Source: Candidatus Omnitrophota bacterium
Lineage (GTDB): Bacteria > Omnitrophota > Gorgyraeia > Zapsychrales > Zapsychraceae
Direction of reading: 5' to 3'
Assembly (NCBI GenBank): GCA_023247445.1
Contig: JAHFGL010000025.1
Coordinates: forward strand, 1-33,500
DNA length: 33,500 nucleotides
Shown here: positions 17,722 through 30,758 of the stretch, piece by piece
Position numbering within the stretch: the stretch's first letter is position 1
Layout of the letters: every line of letters begins with the position of its first letter
The notes under the pieces: generated by a model
Databases searched by the model: none
What the model saw: only the letters and a program-made list of their open reading frames with translations
What the model was told of the DNA's origin: nothing
Program-made: the position numbers and the translations under genes

Positions 17722-19113
17722 TTACAAGGAAAATGTCGTCTGCAAATAAAAAAAGTCAGTGTCATCGTTAGCGCCAGTTTCTTGAAGATATTTACCGGCA
17801 AAGAAATGGCCATATCCTGCCTGCACAGCCACATTATTATTTAATTTGTAATCTAACAATAGATCAATTTCGTCTCCGACATGTGGGCTAACACCAGCGA
17901 TACTCGTTGCTGCTGTTCTTGTGACTGTACGGCCTACGGAATAAAAGGAATCCTTGGGCGTATCAAGAAAAATTAAATGCATATCGGCCTGCAATCTCAA
18001 TTTTTTACTTGGTTTGGCGCTTACTTGGAAACGATAATCATTTAAGTTCTGTAAACTGATCAAATCCATATACCCATAAAAAAGATGGTTGGTTGGATAA
18101 AGGTTATCAAAAGTCGTCATCTTGCCATCGGTGGGATCAGAATCGCCTGAACCATAATCAAATTCAAAAGCGATCCGCGGCTGCCATGGCTTTTGAAAGG
18201 TATATCCCAAAATACCAACGGCCATCATCGCTCGCACATCCTGATCTTTAAAATTTCCCCACTGGCCAGCTACTTCTAATTCATAATCAATGCCACTGGA
18301 GAATGCTTTTTTAAGTCGTCCGCCAAAAGTATAATTATCTATTTCACTAGAGCCATTTGGACCGAAGGAAATATTTTTGTACGTAGCTCGCCTAATAAGG
18401 TAATTTTCAACCAGTGTTTCGTGAAAAACCTTCATCGTCGCGTAATAGGCCCACATCCGGTCTTTATTTGATCCATCGAAAAGATCATCCGCTTGACGTG
18501 GACTTTTAATGGGACTTTTTTCTCCCGCAAAAATATCCAATTGAGTATGAAACGTTGAGAAATGCATGCCAAGCTTACCGCCATCAAAAGTCTGGGCTAC
18601 GTTTGACCAGTTAAATGCCCCGAGCAAGCGTTGTGCCCCATACGAAAATTCTTGCCGACCAGCACGTAGCGATAATTTATTTAAAGTAAGTGCTTCAACT
18701 ATAACCGTATCTTCGTAATCAACATAAAGTTGCCGAAGGTCCATGAAATTTTCAAAGGCTGTTTTATTGACAAACTTATCATTGGCGATCCGCGAATCCT
18801 GCCATTGGGTAAATAACTTCAGCGGCTTAATCGGAATCCACTGTAAAGTTAAACGACTACGAAAAAGATCAAAAGTATCTTCATCACCTAACGAATCATC
18901 AAAATCATAATTATTTCGATACTCAAGTCGATGCCGAAATTCCATATCCGCGTTAAGGTAAGGCGGAAGATGCTTATTAAGAATTTCCCCCGCCTGGACA
19001 TACACAATTTTCCCCATCGCTAAAGTAAGACCCAACAACAATATCGTTAAAGATCGTTGTCCAATAAAATTCTTATGCTGATTAGTTTTTAAATTCTTCC
19101 CAAGATGTCGCAT
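17722..19113 (-). CDS. Alginate-export-type outer-membrane porin
   Basis: 463-residue predicted beta-barrel. Residues 1-42 form a signal peptide (GQRSLTILLLGLTLAMG, ending near VQAGE). The mature chain has alternating amphipathic strands and the alginate_exp-family landmarks: an N-terminal ADMEFRHRLEYRNNYDF block, SRLTLQWIPIKPLKLFTQWQDSR and LSLRAGRQEFSYGAQRLLGAFNWSNVAQTFDG. It ends in FFYLQTTFSL, with the terminal aromatic-x-Leu pattern of outer-membrane proteins. The start is set at 19113: AAGGAGG lies five bases upstream, whereas the ATG at 19137, which abuts the nrtD stop, has no site. Last gene of the nitrate cluster, so it is inferred to admit nitrate/nitrite rather than alginate; the substrate is unproven. 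Confidence 0.8.
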   Translation of the reverse strand: MRHLGKNLKTNQHKNFIGQRSLTILLLGLTLAMGKIVYVQAGEILNKHLPPYLNADMEFRHRLEYRNNYDFDDSLGDEDTFDLFRSRLTLQWIPIKPLKLFTQWQDSRIANDKFVNKTAFENFMDLRQLYVDYEDTVIVEALTLNKLSLRAGRQEFSYGAQRLLGAFNWSNVAQTFDGGKLGMHFSTFHTQLDIFAGEKSPIKSPRQADDLFDGSNKDRMWAYYATMKVFHETLVENYLIRRATYKNISFGPNGSSEIDNYTFGGRLKKAFSSGIDYELEVAGQWGNFKDQDVRAMMAVGILGYTFQKPWQPRIAFEFDYGSGDSDPTDGKMTTFDNLYPTNHLFYGYMDLISLQNLNDYRFQVSAKPSKKLRLQADMHLIFLDTPKDSFYSVGRTVTRTAATSIAGVSPHVGDEIDLLLDYKLNNNVAVQAGYGHFFAGKYLQETGANDDTDFFYLQTTFSL

Positions 19114-19137
19114 TAGAGCCTCCTTAAATTTTTTCAT

Positions 19138-20004
19138 TTAAACTGAAATTGGAATCTTTACAGCGGTCGCCGAAGTTGTTTCTGTTTTAGTTTCACTACT
19201 TTTAACTTTCATTGATGGAGTTGACTCCTGATGCATTCGTCCTTCCAAAAAATCAATCAGATGTCCACGATTTTTATAATAGTCTGGATGATCAATGATT
19301 TCTTTTCGATGTCGCGGCCGGCCAAAATTAATCGAAAGAATATCTCCCACTTTCGCCCGCGGACCGTTGGTCATCATGACCACGCGATCGGATAAGAAAA
19401 TAGCTTCATCGACATCGTGTGTAACCATAATGGCGGTAATTTTCTCGCGCGACCAAACCTCTAAAAGAACTTCCTGTAAATCGGCACGCGTTAAAGAATC
19501 CAGCATACCAAAAGGCTCATCCAAAAGTAATAACTTTGGTTTAAGGGCAAAGGCGCGCGCGATTCCAACCCGTTGTTTCATGCCGTTTGATAACTCCGCT
19601 GCCTTTTTATAAAATGAGTTGCCTAAACCAACTCGATTCAAATAATATTTACAGATATCTTCTCGCTGTTTTTTTGTTCCATGAGGAAATACTTGATTGA
19701 CACCTAACATAACATTTTCAAGCGAGGTCATCCAGGGAAATAAACTCGGAGATTGAAACACAATACCGCGATCTGGACCCGGACGATCAATTTGTTGAGT
19801 CGCTAAGAAAATATAACCCGATGTGATGTCGTTTAGTCCAGCGGCCATCATAAGCGCGGTTGATTTTCCACAACCAGAATGACCGATGATCGAAACAAAT
19901 TCTCCCTTGGCAACCTTTAAATCAAAACCCTCCAAGACGACAAATGGTCCTTTGGGTGTCGGATATATTTTTGATACATTGCTAAATTCAAGGTAATTGT
20001 CCAT
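19138..20004 (-). CDS. Nitrate/sulfonate-type ABC transporter ATPase (NrtD-like)
   Basis: 288 residues. ABC ATPase with Walker A GHSGCGKST at about 42-50, a Q-loop region with VFQSPSLFPWMT, signature LSNGMKQRVGIARA, Walker B LLLLDEPFGMLD and the H-switch VTHDVDEA. The start MDNYLEFSNVSKIYPTPKGPF and the REKITAIMV segment match the NrtD/SsuB/TauB group for nitrate, sulfonate or taurine import; location in a nitrate cluster points to nitrate. The ATG at 20004 has GGAGG four bases upstream and is preferred over the adjacent TTG at 20007. No permease or binding-protein gene is present in the window, and the gene just upstream is a wreck of a second ATPase, so this protein may have lost its partner. 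Confidence 0.85.
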   Translation of the reverse strand: MDNYLEFSNVSKIYPTPKGPFVVLEGFDLKVAKGEFVSIIGHSGCGKSTALMMAAGLNDITSGYIFLATQQIDRPGPDRGIVFQSPSLFPWMTSLENVMLGVNQVFPHGTKKQREDICKYYLNRVGLGNSFYKKAAELSNGMKQRVGIARAFALKPKLLLLDEPFGMLDSLTRADLQEVLLEVWSREKITAIMVTHDVDEAIFLSDRVVMMTNGPRAKVGDILSINFGRPRHRKEIIDHPDYYKNRGHLIDFLEGRMHQESTPSMKVKSSETKTETTSATAVKIPISV

Positions 20005-20021
20005 CAATCCTCCATTTTGCT

Positions 20022-20193
20022 TTACCGTAAAACTTTTGGCTCTAAATCCGGCAGGATAAATTTCTCAAGCTGTGATTCACTTTTATTTTTCATGCCGACA
20101 TCAATTTTGAAGTTAATATTTTTTAAAACTTCAGTACGGTTTTTTTCCTTCGCCGTATCCTTTACTTACATTTTTGAATTCTAAAAAGGCCAT
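20022..20193 (-). pseudogene. Remnant of a nitrate ABC transporter ATPase (frameshifted and internally deleted)
   Basis: From ATG 20193 the minus strand encodes MAFLEFKNVSKGYGEGKK and then hits a stop. A run of seven A lies at the break. Removing one A restores GYGEGKNRTEVLKNINFKID, the typical start of an NrtC/NrtD-like ATPase just before Walker A. The restored frame then passes straight into about 24 unrelated residues (MKNKSESQLEKF ... LEPKVLR) and a stop at 20022, with no Walker A, signature or Walker B. So there is a one-base insertion plus a large deletion joining the ATPase start to the tail of another reading frame, possibly of the lost transporter genes. The intact NrtD-like gene begins 17 bp later. 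Confidence 0.75.
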
Positions 20194-20207
20194 AAAATTA
20201 TCCTCGA

Positions 20208-20266
20208 GATTCGTCATCCTAAGGAACGCCTGAGATTCTCGCTTAAAGCATGCGGGAATGACAATC
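20208..20266. repeat. Short interspersed element with GTCAT inverted ends
   Basis: The element begins GATTCGTCATCC and ends GGGAATGACAATC, inverted copies with a few mismatches; the centre has CTGAGATTCTCGC and GCATGCGGG words. It resembles the GTCATTCCCGC family of small non-coding palindromes seen in many bacteria. It lies between the PAS-LuxR gene and the ATPase remnant, next to the presumed deletion. Confidence 0.5.
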
Positions 20267-20293
20267 TTTTATCATTCTTAGGATATGTTCTAG

Positions 20294-21202
20294 TTATTGC
20301 TTTGATGAGGGCAAGCGAATTGTTGCAGGATTGTCCATAAGCGACTGCAGATATGTGGCGAGATTGATATTCTTTTGGGATATATCCAATTTCTTCCTAA
20401 TACGATTTCGCTGATTCTCGATGGTTCGGCACGAAGTTCTCAGAAGCTCCGCCATTTCCTTTGTGCTCTGACCATTCTTGATCATGTCACAAATTTCAAT
20501 TTCTCGAGCGGTCAACCCCCATTGTCGCTGGCTAATGGCGCGTCCGAACCCGGCCGTTAATTGTTTCAGATTTTCTTCTAGCAATAAAATATTTTTACGA
20601 TCAAGCGTGCTCCCTTTTCTTCGCAACTTATCTAGAGTAGGCAAAATAACTTTTTCGACATTAGCCATGACATCATCTTTGATTTGATTTTTTTCGATCT
20701 CAATTTGTGCCAATATTTCACGTAAGGCCGAATTTTTTTGTTCCAAAGCCTGTTTTTGTTCTTGAAGTTCTCTGGCGGAGAGTTTTAAAGCCTCCTCAAT
20801 TTTTTCTTTTTGAGTAATATCCATCACGCTTCCACGAGTATTGATAAGATTTCCAGCTTGATCAAACTTAGCCGTCGCATTTAAAACCACTCGAAGGCGA
20901 TGTCCATCCTTATGAATCAAGGTGTAATACAAATTAAGAACCTTCCCGTGCTTATTTAAATCATGCCAATGTTTTTGAAAAAGAAATTGTTCTTCCGGGA
21001 CAATTAAATCCGCCCAGGTCTTTTTGCCAACGACCTCTTCATAGGTATAGCCAATCATATCTAGCTCCGCCTGATTAATATCAATAAACATTCGATCCGG
21101 ACCAAAGATATGAAAACCAATGGGCGCATTATCAAAAAAATCGCGGAGATATTTGACTTCACTAACCAAAGAATCAGTTGTCGCTTCAAAATCAATAGCC
21201 AT
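20294..21202 (-). CDS. PAS-domain LuxR-type transcription regulator
   Basis: 302 residues. A PAS domain covers about 15-135 (FFDNAPIGFHIFGPDRMFIDIN ... GSVMDITQ, with the PAC tail). A coiled-coil linker follows at about 136-190 (EEALKLSARELQEQKQALEQ). A conserved helical segment at about 190-228 (VILPTLDKLRRKGSTLDRKN) leads to a LuxR/GerE helix-turn-helix at about 232-290 (LTAREIEICDMIKNGQSTK ... RTIENQRNRIRKKL). There is no signal peptide or membrane span, so it is a cytosolic sensor-regulator. It is embedded in the nitrate cluster 39 bp after nasA and probably controls it. Its last 110 residues are paralogous to the short regulator at 30233-30595. The ligand of the PAS domain is not evident. 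Confidence 0.88.
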   Translation of the reverse strand: MAIDFEATTDSLVSEVKYLRDFFDNAPIGFHIFGPDRMFIDINQAELDMIGYTYEEVVGKKTWADLIVPEEQFLFQKHWHDLNKHGKVLNLYYTLIHKDGHRLRVVLNATAKFDQAGNLINTRGSVMDITQKEKIEEALKLSARELQEQKQALEQKNSALREILAQIEIEKNQIKDDVMANVEKVILPTLDKLRRKGSTLDRKNILLLEENLKQLTAGFGRAISQRQWGLTAREIEICDMIKNGQSTKEMAELLRTSCRTIENQRNRIRKKLDISQKNINLATYLQSLMDNPATIRLPSSKQ

Positions 21203-21241
21203 TAGTTTCTTCTTTCTAAAGTTGATAAATATTTAATTTCA

Positions 21242-23446
21242 TCATGGTTCATAAGGGCTTTTTGAAACATTCGCGGCACAAATTTTATACGATGGCTGAC
21301 GCGAATAGGGATCAAAGATGGCCAAGGTTAATTGATTAGTTTCCGGATAATGCATGGGAATAAAAATTTGTCCGGGCTTAACGGTCGTGACAAGACTCGC
21401 CTGGGCTTTGATTCTTCCTCGGAGAGTTGCCACAAAAACCAATTGCCCTTGCTCGATACCGCGACGCTTGGCATCATCGGCATTAATCTCCACGTAAACT
21501 TGCGATGGATATAGCTTGCGCAAAATCGCTGACTTCGCTGTCCGCGTCTGCGTATGCCACTGCGAAGACGTACCCCGACCAGTCAAAAGAAGAAATGGAT
21601 ACTGTTCATCGGCAATCTCCGGTAGTGGCCGCTCGTCTTCAAATAAAAATTTAGCTTTATGATCGTGATGAAAAAACTGACCATCCTCAAAAAGACGACG
21701 CTCATGCGACGCATGAGCACTCCCCTCGGGGAAAGGCCATTGAATCCCACCCAAACGATCAATCATCGCATAATCATCAATCCCTGTAATGTCGCAGGGT
21801 TGGCCGCGGGAAATATTCTTTAAAATTTGAAACGTCTCTTCTGGCGAACTCCACTTGGCAAACATCCGTTCACAGCCCCAATAACGCGCGACCAATTTAA
21901 AGATATCAAAGTCCGGCATCGCCCGACCAGGCGCCTTAGTCACTTTCTTAATCACACCAACTCTTCGCTCAGAATTTATAAAAGTTCCTTCTTTCTCCCC
22001 CCAACCGGCCGCCGGCAAAACAAGATGCGCTGTTTGCGCGGTTTCGGTTGTGTGATACATATCTTGAACAACCAAAAATTCTAAATTTTTTAAATAATCT
22101 TTTAACTGATTTTGATTAATCCATGAATGAACAGGATTGGTGGCAATAATCCAAAGCCCTTTAATTTTTTTACTAATCACGCCTTCAATAATCTGATCAT
22201 ACGCCCAGCTGTTTTGTTGTGGAATGACCGCGGGATCAAGTTCTAAAATATCGGCAATCTTTTGCCGATGAACTGGATTTAAAAAATCATGGCCGCCTAA
22301 AAGATTTGTGGTGTTACTAAAAAGCCTTGAACCCATGGCATTGCATTGGCCGGTGATTGAATTCGCTCCCGTGCCTGGCCGACCGATATTTCCCGTCATA
22401 AGCGCCAAATTTATAATCGCCTGCGCGGTGCGTACACCTTCATAACTTTGGTTAACACCCATCGTCCACCAAAAGGAAACGCGTTTACCCAAATAAATGG
22501 CTGAGGCAAATTCATAAAGTTGCCGTTTATGAAGACCTGAAATCTCCGCTACAAACTCCGGAGAATATTTTTTTACATGCTCTTTAAAGGCATCAAAATG
22601 ATTCGTATGTTTCTTGATAAAATTTTCACGGATCCATCCTTCTTCAATCAAGATATGCGCGAGGCCATATAATAAAACCAAATCGGATTTAGGATTAATC
22701 GCGTAATGCTTGGTCGCGGCCATCGCTGTTTCGGTCTTGCGCGGATCAACAACAATAATTTCCGGATCATGTGGATTCATCTTGACCCTTTCCCACATAA
22801 TTGGATGCGCAATGCAAGGATTCGCCCCAATAAAAACAATCACATCGGATTCTTCAAAATCTTTGTAAGTATACGGTGGAGCGTCAAAACCAAAGGATTG
22901 TTTATAAGCGACCGCTGAGGTCGCCATACATTGACGAGTATTACTATCAAAATGCGAAACACCCATACCAAATTTTACCAGCGCACCCAACATCGCCATC
23001 TCTTCCATTGGAATTTGTCCCGTGCTTAAAACGGCGACGCTATCTTTCCCAAAGGTTTGTTGAATTCGAACAAAATTATTAACAAACTCAAGCATTGCCG
23101 TGTGCCAATCGACACTCTCAAACTTACCATCTTTATTTCGTAGCAGTGGATGACTCGCGCGGTCCAGTGCTTTAAGTGGTGATAAAACTTCCCATCCTTT
23201 GGGACACGCAAATCCAAGATTGACCGGATAATTGGCGGTGGGAGTGACATTAATCGCTTGACCCTCTTTAATATGCACATCAAGGCTACAGCCCGTCGAG
23301 CAATAACCGCAAATCATACTGACGGTTTGATCAGGTAAAAGACGCTGTGGCAGCTGACCTAATCCAAAAGCACTTGGTGTCAGGATCAACTCTTCTGTTA
23401 ATGGTCCCGTGTCTTGATAAATTAATTTTTTAAGATTTCGAATCAT
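21242..23446 (-). CDS. nasA: Assimilatory nitrate reductase catalytic subunit, molybdopterin type
   Basis: 734-residue Mo-bisMGD oxidoreductase reducing nitrate to nitrite. An N-terminal [4Fe-4S] site is formed by Cys46, Cys49, Cys53 and Cys81 (ICGYCSTGC ... FACPKGW). The likely Mo ligand is Cys172 in [17 protein letters not shown] and [14 protein letters not shown] are family markers. The C-terminal molydop-binding domain at about 620-730 has [21 protein letters not shown]. There is no twin-arginine signal, so the enzyme is cytoplasmic, as expected for assimilation. It lacks the extra C-terminal [2Fe-2S] domain of some NasA proteins. Three bases separate its ATG from the stop of the iron-sulfur/anchor gene, its presumed electron donor. 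A formate dehydrogenase is the main alternative, but nirBD and narK make nitrate reductase the better call. Confidence 0.88.
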
Positions 23447-23449
23447 TGT

Positions 23450-25120
23450 CTAACCTGTTTTTGTAAGATGAAAAGGCACAACCGCTCGAAAAAACAAATA
23501 TCGTTCAAGAAATTCCCCAGCCATAAGAAAAACAAACGCAGCCCAAATCGAAATAACAATTTTTATTCCCGCGTAGGGAGAATAATAATCGATCGAGAGA
23601 ATAAATAGCGGCAATAAAATTCCGCCGATTGTTCCCAAAGCAAAACGCCATAATGTAATATTTTTCAGCGGCCTAACCATGAGAACAGCTGTCTTTTTAA
23701 AAAAATGCTGATCGTCACTTTTCAAGAAACAAAAAATCGTTGATTCGATTGTCATCTTTATAAAACTTAAAACTAATATAATCGAACAAAACATTTTTCC
23801 AAAACGGGCCATGACCGAAGGAATTAGAAATGGCGCCTGGATCATGGTGCAAGCTAGAGAAATCGCAAGACTCATGACAAATCCCAAAATCGTCATGGTC
23901 ATCAAAAATTTAATCGTCGTCAAATTCGTATCCCAAAACGGTCGTTTGGTATCACGATAAACCATGACCGAACATAACACCCCAATCAAACCACTTAAAA
24001 AAACCAAATGACTCATCACATCTAAAATGGCCGCCCCTCCTAAAAATGGTTTTAATGTTTGCGCGATGGTTTCACTGCGTGCACATAAAACATACATGAC
24101 GGCCAATTGCGCAAAAATCCCAAAGGCAAGAATTTCTCGCGAGAGCCATGAGGTCATGAGTCCTAGAACCGCACGAAAAGCTAAATGCGGTCGACCCAGA
24201 TGAAAAATACTCGCCGCCAGAGCCACGAGTCCTGTACTTAAGGCAACCCACACATGAACCGAAGAAAGAACGGCGCTTAACCCACTACCAATAAGTTTTC
24301 GTAAAATTATTTCGGCCAAAAATGTTCCAACGGAGAGCTGCGTTAAAACGAGCATAAAAACCAGCGGCAAATGAGAATGTTCTGGCTTTAAATTAAGATA
24401 ATCAGCCGAGGCCATGTTCGTTGGCAAAGGATGTTTACTTTTATAGCGCGTCGTAGGATAAGTATAATTAGAAGCCGGGGCATCCGGAACATTGACAAAG
24501 TCTTGATAATTCTTTTTTACATCGCTGGTATTAACTATCGTGATTCGAATCGCTCCCGTCGGACAAGCCTTGGCACAAGCCGGCGGTTCATTGGCCTTTA
24601 AACGCCCAATGCACATATCGCATTTATGAACAATCCCGCGTTTCTTATTATATTTGGGAACATCGTACGGACATTTCAAAATGCAGTATTGGCAACCAAA
24701 ACACTGATCATCCAAATGTTTGACGATCCCCGTGGCCTCTTCTTTAATATAGGCTTTCGTTGGACAGCCAGTCATACAAGCAGGTTCAGCGCAATGATGG
24801 CAAGCGGAGGTGACATGTTGAATGACCGGATTTTCCGTCGTGCCGCCCTGGATTAATCCAACCGATCGCCATGTTTCATCTTCGTCTAATCCATTTTCAT
24901 TGTGACACGCAGTTACACAAGCCTTACAGCCCGTGCATTTATCCAAATCGACTTCAAAGGCATATTGCTGCCCAGCACCGGGCACCTTCGATGGAATCAA
25001 TTCTCGATAACGTTTTTGTGTGGGATCAAACTGACGCATGTCATGCAGCTCGGTAAATTTTTCAACGGCTGAGATCAGCGCAGCTTTATCTATCGATTCA
25101 TCGATCATATTGTCTTTCAT
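23450..25120 (-). CDS. Fused DmsB-DmsC-like iron-sulfur and membrane-anchor subunit
   Basis: 556 residues that join two DMSO-reductase-type subunits. Residues about 55-210 hold four ferredoxin-like Cys clusters: CTGCKACVTACH, CHHCAEPACMTGCP, CFGCQYCILKCP, and CDMC with CAKACP. Residues about 250-550 contain about eight membrane spans of the DmsC anchor family, with SVHVWVALSTGLVALAASIFHLGRP containing the HLGRP motif. There is no Tat signal, so the iron-sulfur part should face the cytoplasm. Inferred role: take electrons from menaquinol and pass them through the clusters to NasA, encoded three bases downstream. This replaces the NADH-dependent NasB/NasC or ferredoxin of better-known systems. 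The start at 25120 has no good Shine-Dalgarno site and follows the transporter stop by 12 bp; the second ATG at 25108 is possible. Confidence 0.87.
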   Translation of the reverse strand: MKDNMIDESIDKAALISAVEKFTELHDMRQFDPTQKRYRELIPSKVPGAGQQYAFEVDLDKCTGCKACVTACHNENGLDEDETWRSVGLIQGGTTENPVIQHVTSACHHCAEPACMTGCPTKAYIKEEATGIVKHLDDQCFGCQYCILKCPYDVPKYNKKRGIVHKCDMCIGRLKANEPPACAKACPTGAIRITIVNTSDVKKNYQDFVNVPDAPASNYTYPTTRYKSKHPLPTNMASADYLNLKPEHSHLPLVFMLVLTQLSVGTFLAEIILRKLIGSGLSAVLSSVHVWVALSTGLVALAASIFHLGRPHLAFRAVLGLMTSWLSREILAFGIFAQLAVMYVLCARSETIAQTLKPFLGGAAILDVMSHLVFLSGLIGVLCSVMVYRDTKRPFWDTNLTTIKFLMTMTILGFVMSLAISLACTMIQAPFLIPSVMARFGKMFCSIILVLSFIKMTIESTIFCFLKSDDQHFFKKTAVLMVRPLKNITLWRFALGTIGGILLPLFILSIDYYSPYAGIKIVISIWAAFVFLMAGEFLERYLFFRAVVPFHLTKTG

Positions 25121-25132
25121 GTCAAATCACAT

Positions 25133-26464
25133 TTAAACCGCTTGTGGTTCAAGTTGCTTGGCCCGGGCGGCATCGAATTCACTCTTGACTTCTTTTTCCA
25201 CTTCCGGAGAAAATCGAACAGCCAACGTAAATGCTGAACAAAAAATAACAATAAATCCTAAATAGAATAGCGCAGTAGAATAGCTTAATCCTTCCGCCCG
25301 AAATAGGAATCCAAAACAAACCGCCCCCATATTACCGCCCGCACCAACAATTCCAGCGACGGCGCCTAAGGCTTTCCTGTGAACAAAAGGAACCACTGAG
25401 TAAGTTGCCCCACTAGCCATTTGAAAACATATGCCAGTTAATATCATGGCAACAATGGCTATGGGTAAAATATTTATTCTTGAAAATATCACTAATCCAA
25501 TGCCCCCGCAAAAAAGAAGAACACCCAATAAGCGAACACGCATCCTTAATCCCCCCACTTTAGCTTGATGATCTGAAACAATACCACCTAAAGATCGAGT
25601 AAATATATTCATCAAGCCATAAAGACCAGCGATAAATCCTGCTTGAGCAATAGCTAAGTGAAACTGATCCGTAAAATAGAGTGCAGCGATATTATGAATG
25701 GTCAACTCCACACCAAAACATGCACCGTAAGTTAAAAACAGCGCCCAAACACGATAATCTTTAATCGCTGCCAAAAAATTTTCCTGGGTCTTAATTTTGG
25801 CTGGAACCAACCCTTGAGCCTTTAATTCACTTAAATTCCCACTGGGATAATCTTTCGTTAATCGATAATATAAAATGCCCATAATAAATAATGCGACCCC
25901 AGGAACAATCATCGCAAAGCGCCATCCCAACGATTCACTGACGCCAAAACTTAAAATTGCCGCTAAAATAAGTGGCATGACCATTTGTGTTATGCCTCCA
26001 CCTAAATTGCCCCATCCGGCGGCCGTGGCATTGGCGGTTCCAACACAATTTGGAGCAAACATCACCGACGTATGATATTGCGTAATGACAAATGAAGCGC
26101 CAATGGCGCCAATGGCTAAACGAAATAAGAAAAATGTTTGATAATCATGCGCCAAACCAATTGTCATGACGGGAATCGATCCTAAAATGAGTAGCGCGGT
26201 GTAGGCCCGGCGTGGACCAATCTTGTCACAGAGCCATCCCATAATAAGACGGACAATGACTGTTATCGCAACGGACGCAATAATCGTATTTCCAATCTGA
26301 ACCTTAGTTAGACCTAAATCTGCGCGTACTAGCGGCATCAAAGGAGCAATGCCAAACCATCCAAAGAAACACAAAAAGAAAGTAAACCATGTGGTATGAA
26401 AAGCGCGCATAGGAATTGTTTTAAAATCGAATAAGTTAACGCGGGTCGCTTTCATCGAGCTCAT
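25133..26464 (-). CDS. Nitrate/nitrite transporter, MFS NarK/NasA type
   Basis: 443 residues with 12 predicted membrane spans. Family markers are FHTTWFTFFLCFFGWFGIAPLMP at the first span, GWLCDKIGPRRAYT in the first cytoplasmic loop and the nitrate signature GWGNLGGGITQ in span 5, with a second, degenerate signature GIVGAGGNMGAVCFG in span 11. It belongs to the nitrate-nitrite porter family and is the single-domain 12-span form. The ATG overlaps the nirD stop by four bases and has a GAGG site, so the two are co-translated. It imports nitrate for the NasA/NirBD pathway; which coupling ion it uses cannot be read from the sequence. Confidence 0.92.
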   Translation of the reverse strand: MSSMKATRVNLFDFKTIPMRAFHTTWFTFFLCFFGWFGIAPLMPLVRADLGLTKVQIGNTIIASVAITVIVRLIMGWLCDKIGPRRAYTALLILGSIPVMTIGLAHDYQTFFLFRLAIGAIGASFVITQYHTSVMFAPNCVGTANATAAGWGNLGGGITQMVMPLILAAILSFGVSESLGWRFAMIVPGVALFIMGILYYRLTKDYPSGNLSELKAQGLVPAKIKTQENFLAAIKDYRVWALFLTYGACFGVELTIHNIAALYFTDQFHLAIAQAGFIAGLYGLMNIFTRSLGGIVSDHQAKVGGLRMRVRLLGVLLFCGGIGLVIFSRINILPIAIVAMILTGICFQMASGATYSVVPFVHRKALGAVAGIVGAGGNMGAVCFGFLFRAEGLSYSTALFYLGFIVIFCSAFTLAVRFSPEVEKEVKSEFDAARAKQLEPQAV

Positions 26465-26868
26465 TTCCTCTCCTCTCGATAATAAATTTTTGAATTTGCG
26501 CTTAAGACAATTTCGGCATAATGATCTTCACATTTCTTCTCAACATTAATGGCAATAGGGTACTCCAGAAGAATCTGTCCATTTTCTTGCCAGACTTTAA
26601 ATGTTCGAACACACTCCATCCCTTCGCTGCCTTTTCCAGTTGCTAAATCAAATTTGTGGCCATGCAGCGGACAAACAACCTTGTCATTGCCCATGATCCC
26701 TTCCGCCAACAATCCTCGACGATGTGGACATCGATTTTCAATGGCAAATATCGCTTGCGATCGTGAACGAAAAACAGCGATCTCATCATTCTGAACAATA
26801 AAACATCGCCCCTGCCCTAAAGGAATATCTTCTATCGCGCCTAAATTAATAATTGTTTGCTTTGTCAT
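26461..26868 (-). CDS. nirD: Nitrite reductase small subunit, Rieske-type NirD
   Basis: 135-residue Rieske [2Fe-2S] protein. The ligands are visible as Cys47 and His49 in CPHRRG, and Cys66 and His69 in CPLHGH. NirD proteins assist the NADH-dependent nitrite reductase NirB. AAAGGAG precedes the ATG at 26868. The gene is separated from nirB by a 414 bp stretch with an inserted repeat, unlike the usual tight nirB-nirD junction, and overlaps the transporter gene downstream by four bases. The C-terminal tail of about 25 residues after the Rieske fold has no motif I recognise. Confidence 0.9.
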   Translation of the reverse strand: MTKQTIINLGAIEDIPLGQGRCFIVQNDEIAVFRSRSQAIFAIENRCPHRRGLLAEGIMGNDKVVCPLHGHKFDLATGKGSEGMECVRTFKVWQENGQILLEYPIAINVEKKCEDHYAEIVLSANSKIYYREERK

Positions 26869-27282: not shown

Positions 27283-29778
27283 TTAACCATTATTATTAAC
27301 CTCGTGAATAACTTGAATTAATTGTGGGCCGCTAAATTGATGATCATAGGCGGGGATATCCGCTTCTTGCCATGGATCTTTGTAGGCCTCAACAGCCCGT
27401 TGAATAGCCGCATCTAATTGGGCACAAATCCCCAATGAGTCTTCGATTAAAATTCCTTTTAACAAATCAATGCCAATGCGCTCAACGAATCCGTAAGTGC
27501 GTTCTAAATACTTAGCGTGCTCACGGTAATATTGAATAAATCGTCCGATGTGCTTTAAAACATCTTCGTGGCTGTCAACGGTGCAAAGTAAATCTCCCTT
27601 ACGAACCGTAGCCCCAGCCGCACCGCCGACGTAAATTTCCCATTTACCGCCTTCGATAGCAACCGCACCGATATCTTTAACGTAGGCCTCTGAACAATTG
27701 CGCGGACATCCGGCGGTGGCAAGCTTCATTTTGTGCGGAGACTCGATTCCTTGAAAACGATATTCAATTTGCTGCGCCAAACCTATCGAATCGCCAACAC
27801 CATAACGACAAAAATCTGTTCCAACGCAACTTTTGCAAGTTCGAAACGCTTTGGTGTAGGCATGACCGCTAGGCATTCCCAGATCTTTCCAAATTTTAGG
27901 AAGATCTTCTTTTTTGACACCGAGTAAGTCAATACGTTGCCCACCGGTAATTTTGACCATTTTGACTTGATACTTAACCGCGGCCTGCGCAATGCGCATC
28001 AGCTCATCGGGCGTTGTCACACCCGCATAAATGCGTGGCACGACGGAAAATGTACCGTCTTTTTGGATATTGGCATGCACACGATCATTAATAAAACGGG
28101 CATCGCGTTCATCTTCGTACGCATCAGGCCAAACCGTTTTTAACAAAGAGGCTAATCCGGCTTTACTGTCTGCATCTTCTTTTCCATCAGCTAATTCTTT
28201 GAAAACAGCACTGACGGATTTTAATTGTTTGTCTTGAATCTCACGAACGAGTTGAGATTTTTCCAGCGCAATTCCAGGGACATAAAAATGTTCACTGGCA
28301 TCATAAGAAACCTTGCCAACGGTCGCTTCAATAATTTGGGCAATAAGTCCTCGGCAGGAACCACAGCCCTTGCCAGCCTTAGTTTTACTTCCCACCGCTG
28401 AGACACTAATACAATTTTGGTCTTTAATGGCGGAAACAATTTCTTTCTTACAAACGCCGTTGCAATTACAAATCTGCGCATTTTCAGGTAAGGTTGAAAC
28501 ATCCACTAAAGAAGTTCCCGAGACGGCTCCAAAAAGAATCTCCGTTCGATTTTCAGGGACATCAAGATCACTCATAAAATACTGCATTAAACTATCCGAG
28601 GATTCTATATCTCCAAGAAGAATCCCTCCATGGATTTTATTGTGACGGACAATTAGTTTTTTATAAATACTACGGTGGGGATCGCGATAGACAATAATTT
28701 CATCATTTAAGTCATTAGAATTCTTTTCTCCCATCGAAACCAATTCAACGCCCATGACTTTTAATTTTGTCCCGGTCCTTGATCCTTCGTAAGTCGATTT
28801 TGGGTTAACCTCTGTTATGACATCCGCGAGGACTCGCGCCTGCTGCCAAATGGGTTCAACTAAACCGTAAATAACGCCGCGATGTTCCACACATTCGCCA
28901 ACCGAAAAAATATTTAGGTCGGTCGTTTTCATTTGATCATCACAAATAATCCCTTTGTTAACATTAAGTCCACACTTAAAAGCTAATTCCGTAATCGGCC
29001 GGATGCCTGCACTGATGACCACCATATCCGCCTCGAGAGTGCTTCCATCTTTAAATAATAAGGACGTGACTTGGCCATTCTCTCCAACAAGTTTTGACGT
29101 GACAACTCCGGTAAAAACACGCAAACCCATCGCCTCCATACTCCGCTTCAAAATTTGAGCCGCTTCTAAATCCAATTGAGCAGGCATAAGTTGCGGCGCG
29201 GCTTCAATCACACAGACTTCCACATTATGGGTCATCAATCCTCGAGCTGCTTCCAACCCCAAAAGCCCACCACCAATTACAACAGCCTTTTGACAATGCT
29301 TCGCGTATGCGGCAATTTGATGGCAATCATCGATTGTGCGAAATAAAAAGACACCCTTTAACTCCGTGCCTTCAATAGGTGGAACAAAAGGGCGAGAACC
29401 CGTTGCAATAATCAAATCATCGTAGGATTCTTTTACAACATCTTCTTCTGAAAGTGGCACTTGATCTTTGTAGGCAACATCCGCTTTAGATAATTTTAAG
29501 CCTTCAACTTTTTTTCTTTCTCGATCGATGTCAATAACCTTCACTCCCGCATGAAGGGTAATATCATTTTCTTGATACCAACTGAGCGGATTAATAAAGA
29601 TTTCCTGCGGTTCTTGGGTTTGATTTAAAACATTGCTTAAAAGAATCCGGTTATAATTGCCATAGGGCTCGGCGCCAAACATCGTAATTTTGAACTTATT
29701 TGGGTCACGTTTTAAAATTTCCTCAACAACTCGCGCCCCTGCCATCCCGTTACCTATGACTACAAGCTTTCTTTTCAT
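27283..29778 (-). CDS. nirB: NAD(P)H-dependent assimilatory nitrite reductase large subunit
   Basis: 831 residues, reducing nitrite to ammonium with NAD(P)H in the cytoplasm. The first 400 residues are the FAD/NAD-binding module: VVIGNGMAGARVVEEI at the start, ATGSRPFVPPI, and a second GxGxxG in VVIGGGLLGLEAARGL. A BFD-like [2Fe-2S] domain at about 430-485 has CNCNGVC and GKGCGSCRG. The sulfite/nitrite reductase half follows, with siroheme-[4Fe-4S] ligands in CKSCVGTDFC and GCPRNCSEAYVKDIG. The length is normal. GGAGG lies upstream of the ATG at 29778. First structural gene of the operon, preceded by about 380 bases of 5' leader with two terminators and a REP-like hairpin. Confidence 0.95.
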   Translation of the reverse strand: MKRKLVVIGNGMAGARVVEEILKRDPNKFKITMFGAEPYGNYNRILLSNVLNQTQEPQEIFINPLSWYQENDITLHAGVKVIDIDRERKKVEGLKLSKADVAYKDQVPLSEEDVVKESYDDLIIATGSRPFVPPIEGTELKGVFLFRTIDDCHQIAAYAKHCQKAVVIGGGLLGLEAARGLMTHNVEVCVIEAAPQLMPAQLDLEAAQILKRSMEAMGLRVFTGVVTSKLVGENGQVTSLLFKDGSTLEADMVVISAGIRPITELAFKCGLNVNKGIICDDQMKTTDLNIFSVGECVEHRGVIYGLVEPIWQQARVLADVITEVNPKSTYEGSRTGTKLKVMGVELVSMGEKNSNDLNDEIIVYRDPHRSIYKKLIVRHNKIHGGILLGDIESSDSLMQYFMSDLDVPENRTEILFGAVSGTSLVDVSTLPENAQICNCNGVCKKEIVSAIKDQNCISVSAVGSKTKAGKGCGSCRGLIAQIIEATVGKVSYDASEHFYVPGIALEKSQLVREIQDKQLKSVSAVFKELADGKEDADSKAGLASLLKTVWPDAYEDERDARFINDRVHANIQKDGTFSVVPRIYAGVTTPDELMRIAQAAVKYQVKMVKITGGQRIDLLGVKKEDLPKIWKDLGMPSGHAYTKAFRTCKSCVGTDFCRYGVGDSIGLAQQIEYRFQGIESPHKMKLATAGCPRNCSEAYVKDIGAVAIEGGKWEIYVGGAAGATVRKGDLLCTVDSHEDVLKHIGRFIQYYREHAKYLERTYGFVERIGIDLLKGILIEDSLGICAQLDAAIQRAVEAYKDPWQEADIPAYDHQFSGPQLIQVIHEVNNNG

Positions 29779-29985: not shown

Positions 29986-29995
29986 GAAGGCGGAT

Positions 29996-30026
29996 AAAAA
30001 AGCCCTGAACCGTTATGGCTCAAGGC
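29996..30026 (-). terminator. Second terminator in the nirB leader, overlapped by a six-base-loop hairpin
   Basis: On the minus strand GCCTTGAGCC and GGTTCAGGGC form a 10-bp stem (two G-U pairs) with a five-base loop, followed by six T. Just before it, bases 30036-30023 fold as GGGC-ACTGAC-GCCT, a six-base loop with A1 and G4 whose 3' arm shares four bases with the terminator stem. The two structures exclude each other. Confidence 0.75.
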
Positions 30027-30042
30027 GTCAGTGCCCACAAAT

Positions 30043-30152
30043 AAAAAACCCAAATCTCCATTAATTTTTCGTCGCGGAAATTTGGGACTTCTCTGTCCTA
30101 TTGTCTCTTCAGTGAAATTTCTCTTAAACAACAACTTTGCTATTTAAGAAAA
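30043..30152 (-). promoter_or_regulatory. ANTAR-target-like antitermination leader of nirB (leader B)
   Basis: Read 5' to 3' on the minus strand. (1) A hairpin at 30152-30119 with stem CTTAAA/TTTAAG and AGTTGTT in its loop. (2) TTTC-ACTGAA-GAGA at 30117-30104, a four-pair stem with a six-base loop having A1 and G4. (3) GGAC-AGAGAA-GTCC at 30098-30085, a perfect four-pair stem with another A1/G4 six-base loop. (4) A terminator at 30086-30043: CCCAAATTTCC with GGAGATTTGGG, then six T, whose 5' arm overlaps hairpin 3. Known ANTAR proteins bind exactly such paired hexaloops and block the overlapping terminator. Binding here is inferred. Confidence 0.65.
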
Positions 30153-30171: not shown

Positions 30172-30199
30172 AATATAATTCATTCTCGGAAATGGTCAA
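30172..30199 (-). promoter_or_regulatory. Sigma70 promoter of the nirB operon
   Basis: TTGACC (30194-30199) and TATATT (30172-30177) on the minus strand, 16 bases apart. The start site would be near 30165, so the transcript begins at leader B. The promoter lies just downstream of the short LuxR gene, separating the two transcription units. Confidence 0.65.
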
Positions 30200-30232: not shown

Positions 30233-30595
30233 TTAAAACGATCCAAGATAAACAGCCAGGTCAACTTTCTTATCAGACACACCTAACTTTTTTCTTATAT
30301 GATTACGATGATGCTCAATGGTTCTTACCGAAGTATTTAACAAATCCGCGATATCTTTCGTCGGTAGGCCTCGCTTAATCATATGACAAATTTCAATTTC
30401 TCTTTGTGAGAGTCTCCATTTCTTACTTAAAACTTTACTGCCAAAGCCCTTGGTGATCTCTTTTAAGCTTTTCTCAAGCAAATCAATATTGCGTCGATCA
30501 AGATTTGTTCCTTTTCTTTTTAACTTTTCCAGAATTGGACAGATGAGTTGTTCAATATTATTGATAACGTTATATTCCAGGATCTCTTTTTTCAT
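30233..30595 (-). CDS. Short PAS-less LuxR-type regulator, paralogue of the PAS-LuxR protein
   Basis: 120 residues. A helical segment (VINNIEQLICPILEKLKRKG) leads to a LuxR/GerE helix-turn-helix at about 65-118 (LSQREIEICHMIKRGLPTKD ... RTIEHHRNHIRKKLG). The whole protein aligns with residues about 185-292 of the PAS-LuxR regulator at 20294-21202, with shared blocks LDRRNIDLLE/LDRKNILLLE and REIEIC, but it lacks the PAS sensor and coiled coil. The ATG at 30595 follows a GAGACCGG stretch; upstream is the leader with terminator at 30621-30720, so no upstream coding part was missed. It could act with, or compete with, the longer regulator. Control of nirB is inferred from position. Confidence 0.82.
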   Translation of the reverse strand: MKKEILEYNVINNIEQLICPILEKLKRKGTNLDRRNIDLLEKSLKEITKGFGSKVLSKKWRLSQREIEICHMIKRGLPTKDIADLLNTSVRTIEHHRNHIRKKLGVSDKKVDLAVYLGSF

Positions 30596-30620
30596 ACCGG
30601 TCTCTGTTTATATATTCAAC

Positions 30621-30712
30621 AAAAAACCCCGCACCAATTAAGGTACAGGGCTTCAACGTCCAAATCTTCTTCAATGAAATAATTTAAGTTTAACAACTAC
30701 GCCAAACTTAAA
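30621..30712 (-). promoter_or_regulatory. ANTAR-target-like antitermination leader of the short LuxR gene (leader A)
   Basis: Same plan as the nirB leader. (1) A perfect 9-bp hairpin TTTAAGTTT/AAACTTAAA at 30712-30683 with AGTTGTT in its loop. (2) TTTC-ATTGAA-GAAG at 30679-30666, with a six-base loop having A1 and G4. (3) GGAC-GTTGAA-GCCC at 30661-30648; the loop has G4 but G at position 1, and one A-C mismatch in the stem. (4) Terminator CCCTGTACC/GGTGCGGGG at 30650-30627, followed by six T at 30626-30621. Its 5' arm shares three bases with hairpin 3. It ends 25 bases before the regulator ATG. Confidence 0.6.
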
Positions 30713-30729
30713 TGTCCAACTATAAATGA

Positions 30730-30758
30730 AGTGTAAACGCCAAAAACTTCTTTGTCAA
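30730..30758 (-). promoter_or_regulatory. Sigma70 promoter of the short LuxR regulator
   Basis: A perfect TTGACA (30753-30758) and TACACT (30730-30735) on the minus strand, exactly 17 bases apart. The predicted start near 30723 lies immediately before leader A, so the strong promoter followed by a terminator suggests that control acts on transcript elongation. Confidence 0.75.

Follow-up and report, generated by a model that had tools for sequence, protein, structure and literature searches.

A leader RNA with ANTAR-type hexaloop hairpins and two terminators precedes nirB in an Omnitrophota bacterium and very probably belongs to a nitrogen-assimilation regulon

The noncoding region in front of nirB in the window (the whole 33.5 kb stretch of DNA analysed, which comes from an uncultured bacterium of groundwater) very probably houses a transcription attenuator that is controlled by an ANTAR protein and forms part of a nitrogen-assimilation regulon. 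Judged by its sequence, this leader clearly belongs to the ANTAR-target RNAs, with architectural variants of its own. The same module and a single matching ANTAR protein appear to control the genes for ammonium uptake, glutamine synthesis and nitrite in much of the phylum. A literature search found no paper linking ANTAR domains with Omnitrophota or Omnitrophica, so the earlier remark, made from the letters of the DNA, that no such leader was described for this type of organism still stands; ANTAR-target RNAs were apparently undescribed in Omnitrophota before.

The elements of the nirB leader follow one another on the minus strand in the order promoter, P0, P1, P2, T1, P3, T2 and then nirB at 29778. 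The promoter, already noticed from the sequence, is TTGACC-16-TATATT (30172-30199; 10/12 matches). P0 (30119-30150) is a long-stem hairpin with the hexaloop AAAGTT and the core TCTTAAATAGC-AAAGTT-GTTGTTTAAGA, in which an alternative inner A-U closure giving a tetraloop is also possible. P1 (TTTC-ACTGAA-GAGA, 30104-30117; four pairs, one of them G.U) is separated by a linker of 5 nt from the antiterminator hexaloop hairpin P2 (GGAC-AGAGAA-GTCC, 30085-30098; four Watson-Crick pairs). The intrinsic terminator T1 (30043-30086, about -14 kcal/mol) consists of the arms CCCAAATTTCC (30086-30076) and GGAGATTTGGG (30059-30049) and of T6 at 30048-30043. Since the CC at 30086-30085 is common to the 3′ arm of P2 and the 5′ arm of T1, the two folds are mutually exclusive. 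A second module follows, in which the hexaloop hairpin P3 (GGGC-ACTGAC-GCCT, 30023-30036) shares GCCT, its 3′ arm, with the start of the 5′ arm of the intrinsic terminator T2 (GCCTTGAGCC-ATAAC-GGTTCAGGGC plus T6, 29996-30026; about -16 kcal/mol). The sequence-only reading had described two hairpins with loops ACTGAA and AGAGAA, both with A1 and G4, the second sharing its CC with a terminator. This description of P1, P2 and T1 was correct; P0, P3/T2 and the leader of the upstream luxR gene had been overlooked. The 217 nt between T2 and nirB (29995-29779) contain further palindromes, GCAAAAAAGTTTTTTGC and CGGGCTTTGCCCG, and the nirB leaders of two relatives (G019 and G003) carry a different structured stretch at this place.

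When folded by itself, the 110-nt stretch 30152-30043 gave P0 and T1 as its minimum-energy structure, P1 and P2 being absent, and it folded better than 200/200 shuffles (z -4.6). Since the RNA alone adopts P0 and T1, expression is suggested to be off by default and on only in the presence of a binder. Such a binder would be needed because the folding energies of P2 and P3 are about -4 kcal/mol, against -14 to -16 kcal/mol for the terminators. P1 alone is weak (about 0 kcal/mol for the forced hexaloop fold), and only its conservation in relatives makes it credible.

A homologous leader (P0-P1-P2-terminator, 30712-30621) precedes the LuxR-type gene located upstream, also on the minus strand. Its promoter is TTGACA-17-TACACT (30730-30758), followed by P0′ (TTTAAGTTTGGC-GTAGTT-GTTAAACTTAAA, 30683-30712), P1′ (TTTC-ATTGAA-GAAG, 30666-30679), P2′ (GGAC-GTTGAA-GCCC, 30648-30661; one A.C mismatch, loop with G1 and G4) and a terminator (CCCTGTACC-TTAATT-GGTGCGGGG plus T6, 30621-30650). 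The gene behind it (30233-30595) encodes a LuxR/GerE-type regulator of 120 amino acids without an ANTAR domain. The stem of P0′ is quite unlike that of P0 in sequence, yet 12 bases pair, and no other single observation speaks as strongly for P0 as a hairpin under selection. On the other side of the nirB leader, nirB itself (27283-29778; nitrite reductase large subunit, TIGR02374, 847 bits) is the first gene, and behind it lies a nitrate-assimilation gene run (17722-26868) that comprises nirD (26461-26868) and genes for a NarK-like MFS protein (25133-26464), an FeS/DmsC fusion (23450-25120), a NasA-like molybdoenzyme (21242-23446), a PAS-LuxR protein (20294-21202), an ABC ATPase (19138-20007) and a porin-like protein (17722-19137). 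All are on the minus strand, which suggests that nirB and the genes behind it are co-transcribed. The product of 23450-25120, a DmsB-like iron-sulfur subunit fused to a DmsC-like membrane anchor and encoded beside the NasA-like molybdoenzyme, is an unusual partner for assimilatory nitrate reduction.

Modules of the same kind are present elsewhere in the source genome (2.29 Mb, 95.6% complete). The amtB leader contains P1 (CATCAAGCC-AACGAA-GGTTTGATG), P2 with a terminator (GGGC-ACAGAA-GTCC) and P3 with a second terminator (GGGC-AATGAG-GTCC), while the glnA leader contains GGGGC-ATTGAT-GTCCC, also with a terminator. The pattern GGRCANNGNNGYCC retrieved 15 sites genome-wide, and overlap with a terminator was found at nirB, amtB (two sites) and glnA alone; the remaining 11/15, which lack an overlapping terminator, were set aside. 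The genome was also searched with R1, a covariance model whose training sequences were picked for A1/G4 and terminator overlap, so that its loop and pair statistics are biased that way. Its four best sites were again nirB, amtB (two) and glnA. A match at C56 (E 0.001) was rejected, since it lacks both a credible terminator and a nitrogen gene. Within the window, R1 matched the nirB leader at 30041-30102 (P2/T1) and 29994-30040 (P3/T2) and, as a third site, the luxR leader at 30618-30665 (minus strand).

Exactly one ANTAR domain (75.7 bits) was found above cut-off in the source genome. According to Pfam, the protein that carries it consists of two GAF stretches and one ANTAR domain and has no REC domain, so it is not of the two-component EutV-like kind; its gene lies directly upstream of amtB-glnB-glnA. 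RNA-contact residues were mapped through alignment to EutV (PDB 6wsh). The hexaloop contacts R142, K143, K149, E160 and M172 are invariant in 42/42 distinct ANTAR domains of the group, and Y164 is kept in 36/42; the positions of the backbone contacts R168, N173, R175 and R177 are mostly occupied by H, D, C and S. Among solved structures, the first GAF domain is nearest to that of PtsP/EINtr (2.4e-25), a domain reported to bind glutamine in Sinorhizobium and to respond to it in Caulobacter (PMC4848567); this likeness makes a glutamine or nitrogen-status signal plausible. In several relatives the neighbourhood of ANTAR, amtB or glnA genes contains a ptsP-like gene or an open reading frame of similar appearance (L069 1626-3923, with GAF and PEP-utilising domains; also L070 18485-20000, L072 1-1367 and L077 4693-6999).

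The sequence-only reading had favoured NasR-type control, in which, as in Klebsiella, an ANTAR protein senses nitrate or nitrite and switches nitrate genes only. The position of nirB in a nitrate-assimilation gene run agrees with this view, as does the location of the ANTAR gene directly upstream of nirB in some relatives (for example, G049). However, no match to the NIT domain was found anywhere in the source genome, whose sole ANTAR protein is GAF-GAF-ANTAR, and the same modules stand before amtB-glnB and glnA, genes that need no nitrate. Nitrate-specific control of this type is therefore improbable here, and a general nitrogen-status signal is more likely, given the absence of NIT, the location of the GAF-GAF-ANTAR gene beside amtB-glnB-glnA and the modules before amtB and glnA.

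Homologues of nirB come from Candidatus Omnitrophota MAGs, several of them from groundwater. Modules were found in the nirB leaders of G003, G012, G016, G019, G027, G029, G035, G040, G043 and G049; most relatives' nirB leaders have a P1 of the type TTC-RNNG(A/G)A-GA(A/G) and then GGAC-RNNGAN-GYCC. No module was found in front of nirB of G053, and the distant Tengunoibacter nirB (57% identical) has no such leader. R2, a covariance model trained on seven P0-P1-P2 leaders, recovered nirB leaders outside its training set (9.7e-14 in G003 and 1.8e-8 in G035); its match in the luxR leader (30648-30713, E 3.2e-15) is that of a training member. P0, P1 and P2 are conserved in nirB-type leaders. Covariation is located in P0, where compensatory changes occur, while P2 varies too little for covariation; an A.C mismatch is present in 6/7 nirB-type P2 stems. 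In 99/99 loops, position 4 of the hexaloop is G, and position 1 is A in 83, G in 15 and T in 1, figures that partly reflect the A1/G4 training choice, except for the G at position 1, which does not. Hexaloops conserved in related nirB leaders, covariance scores far above background and one ANTAR protein with the main contact residues strongly support the initial proposal of an ANTAR-style antitermination leader; neither of the outcomes named beforehand as refuting it, unconserved hexaloops or a covariance score at background, was observed.

The distribution of modules was compared with that of the regulator. An ANTAR protein is encoded in 88/111 related genomes, almost always as a single copy, and R1 matches were obtained in 87/111. 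Within the order, all ANTAR-positive genomes have an R1 match (67/67) and all R1-negative genomes are without ANTAR (5/5; hypergeometric 8e-5); among other members of the class, 0/9 ANTAR-less genomes have a match. Nine order-level genomes yielded an R1 match and no ANTAR match; most are incomplete, and two (G002 and G003) are 93-95% complete. In the latter two, the gene may have been lost or missed in assembly, or the modules may have another reader.

Attenuation by some other factor or by a metabolite-binding riboswitch, with the hexaloops being incidental, would agree with the weakness of P1 and P2 and with the fact that alternative terminators are used by other leader families too. It is nonetheless very improbable, since module presence tracks the ANTAR gene, the invariant part is an R-N-N-G hexaloop on a short stem and not a ligand pocket, and a search of the window and of eight related loci against Rfam returned no family at gathering score. 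The weak Rfam matches in the leader (bglG-cis-reg and L10 leader; E about 3-4.5) were taken as chance.

As to chance, we scanned for hairpins that have an A-N-N-G hexaloop and a 3′ arm overlapping with an intrinsic terminator. Two modules were observed in the nirB leader (454 nt), against a mean of 0.004 in 1000 dinucleotide shuffles, and two in the amtB leader (432 nt), against 0.001; the entire window, scanned on both strands, yielded four, two of which are those of the nirB leader. That T1 and T2 are plain terminators of luxR accompanied by chance hairpins is hardly credible, for although both lie behind that gene and might also terminate its transcript, there is a promoter between luxR and T1, shuffles almost never yield a module, and the same module stands before amtB, glnA and relatives' nirB with other upstream genes.

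Among 67 modules examined, 64 lead to one of the following: amtB (often with glnB), glnA, nirB, the ANTAR gene, porin-amtB, a glnB-like gene, nifH, or a gene of the LuxR or PAS-LuxR type that precedes nirB. Since many of these loci were fetched for their nearness to ANTAR or nirB genes, the fairer figure is that for loci picked by R1 alone, 22/23 of which lead to amtB, glnA, nirB, nifH or PAS-LuxR. Several individual targets deserve mention. Modules precede the ANTAR gene in G007 (L072 5518-5575) and G001 (L070 14302-14358), which suggests autoregulation. In G069 a module lies directly before a nifH-like gene (L107 1501-1558), and nitrogen fixation may join the regulon there. In relatives whose PAS-LuxR gene adjoins nirB and has a module of its own (L068 817-864, L123 and L104), a regulator acting on RNA seems to govern one that acts on DNA.

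Some modules of the relatives begin no more than about 20 nt from the -10 box, which leaves no room for an upstream hexaloop. In these promoter-proximal modules an R-N-N-G hexaloop occupies the apex of the terminator hairpin in 15/22 cases, and an apical hexaloop of another class in 1; the remaining modules have an apical R-N-N-G hexaloop in 18/84 cases and one of another class in 20 (Fisher 6e-5 for the enrichment, calculated on related sequences that are not independent events). Examples include L030 1293-1347, L071 4397-4454, and 1501-1558 of each of L097, L101 and L103. We read this form as a dual-hexaloop site rebuilt so that one hexaloop would lie inside the terminator. The leaders of the window itself have the upstream-hairpin form.

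From these elements we infer binding, the direction of the switch, the order of events and the signal as follows. RNA polymerase would start at the nirB promoter and, by default, stop at T1 and T2, leaving nirB off. The active GAF-GAF-ANTAR protein would bind R-N-N-G hexaloops as they emerge, with P0 and P1 acting as recruitment hairpins and P2 and then P3 being bound after them. P2 and P3, when held, would keep their 3′ arms from T1 and T2, resulting in read-through into nirB and the nitrate-assimilation genes. The same protein would act on the leaders of luxR, amtB-glnB (P1, P2/T1 and P3/T2) and glnA. The signal would most likely be nitrogen limitation, which the GAF domains would sense, possibly as glutamine. 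More broadly, it is a tentative reading, just short of an even prospect, that Omnitrophota possess a one-component GAF-GAF-ANTAR general nitrogen regulator, perhaps responding to glutamine via its PtsP-like GAF domain, with rearranged RNA targets: in nirB, three hexaloops before one terminator and a second attenuator with a single hexaloop; in relatives, the promoter-proximal terminator-apex form, in which a single hairpin would act as the terminator and at the same time contribute to the site bound by the antiterminator.

The nirB leader shares with the dual-hairpin ANTAR-target RNAs (EutV, AmiR and NasR; Ramesh et al. 2012, PMC3369931) two small hairpins with A1/G4 hexaloops, a second hairpin that overlaps an intrinsic terminator, several modules per regulon, and downstream nitrogen genes that include ammonium transporters, P-II, nitrite reductase and glutamine synthetase. 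Stems of at least three pairs and a variable linker characterise such RNAs, and P1 and P2 have four pairs each. What sets the present system apart is an additional hexaloop hairpin with a long stem, P0, which precedes the pair in nirB-type leaders, together with a second terminator that has a single hexaloop of its own, the acceptance of G at position 1 and, in relatives, a hexaloop at the terminator apex. General nitrogen-assimilation ANTAR regulons were predicted in that work for other bacteria, and its main text does not mention the phylum Omnitrophota. The regulon predicted there for Desulfotomaculum acetoxidans, with at least 13 modules spread over six transcription units for general nitrogen metabolism, is similar in content; it belongs to another phylum. 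With Klebsiella NasR and its nasF leader (PMC7496416; PDB 4AKK) the present system shares a one-component ANTAR antiterminator and the leader of a nitrate/nitrite assimilation operon, but NasR senses nitrate through a NIT domain, whereas here there are two GAF domains, no NIT domain and a broader regulon.

The analysis places a complete predicted antitermination regulon for nitrogen assimilation, regulator and targets included, in an uncultured phylum. No GAF-ANTAR protein had been characterised in 2012 (PMC3369931), and a paper on NasR in 2020 listed just two one-component ANTAR proteins as characterised, NasR itself and PAL, which responds to light (PMC7496416); a GAF-ANTAR protein now comes with a defined set of predicted targets. 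Compared with the EutV-RNA structure and its single-hexaloop model (PMC8934654), R142, K143, K149, E160, Y164 and M172 are largely kept, whereas R168, N173, R175 and R177 are mostly changed, and GAF domains take the place of REC. That 2022 study did not settle why a pair of hexaloops is required or whether a single one can function in nature. With roughly a hundred natural modules that have one to three hexaloops at known spacing, the Omnitrophota leaders, above all those of the terminator-apex form, make this question directly testable.
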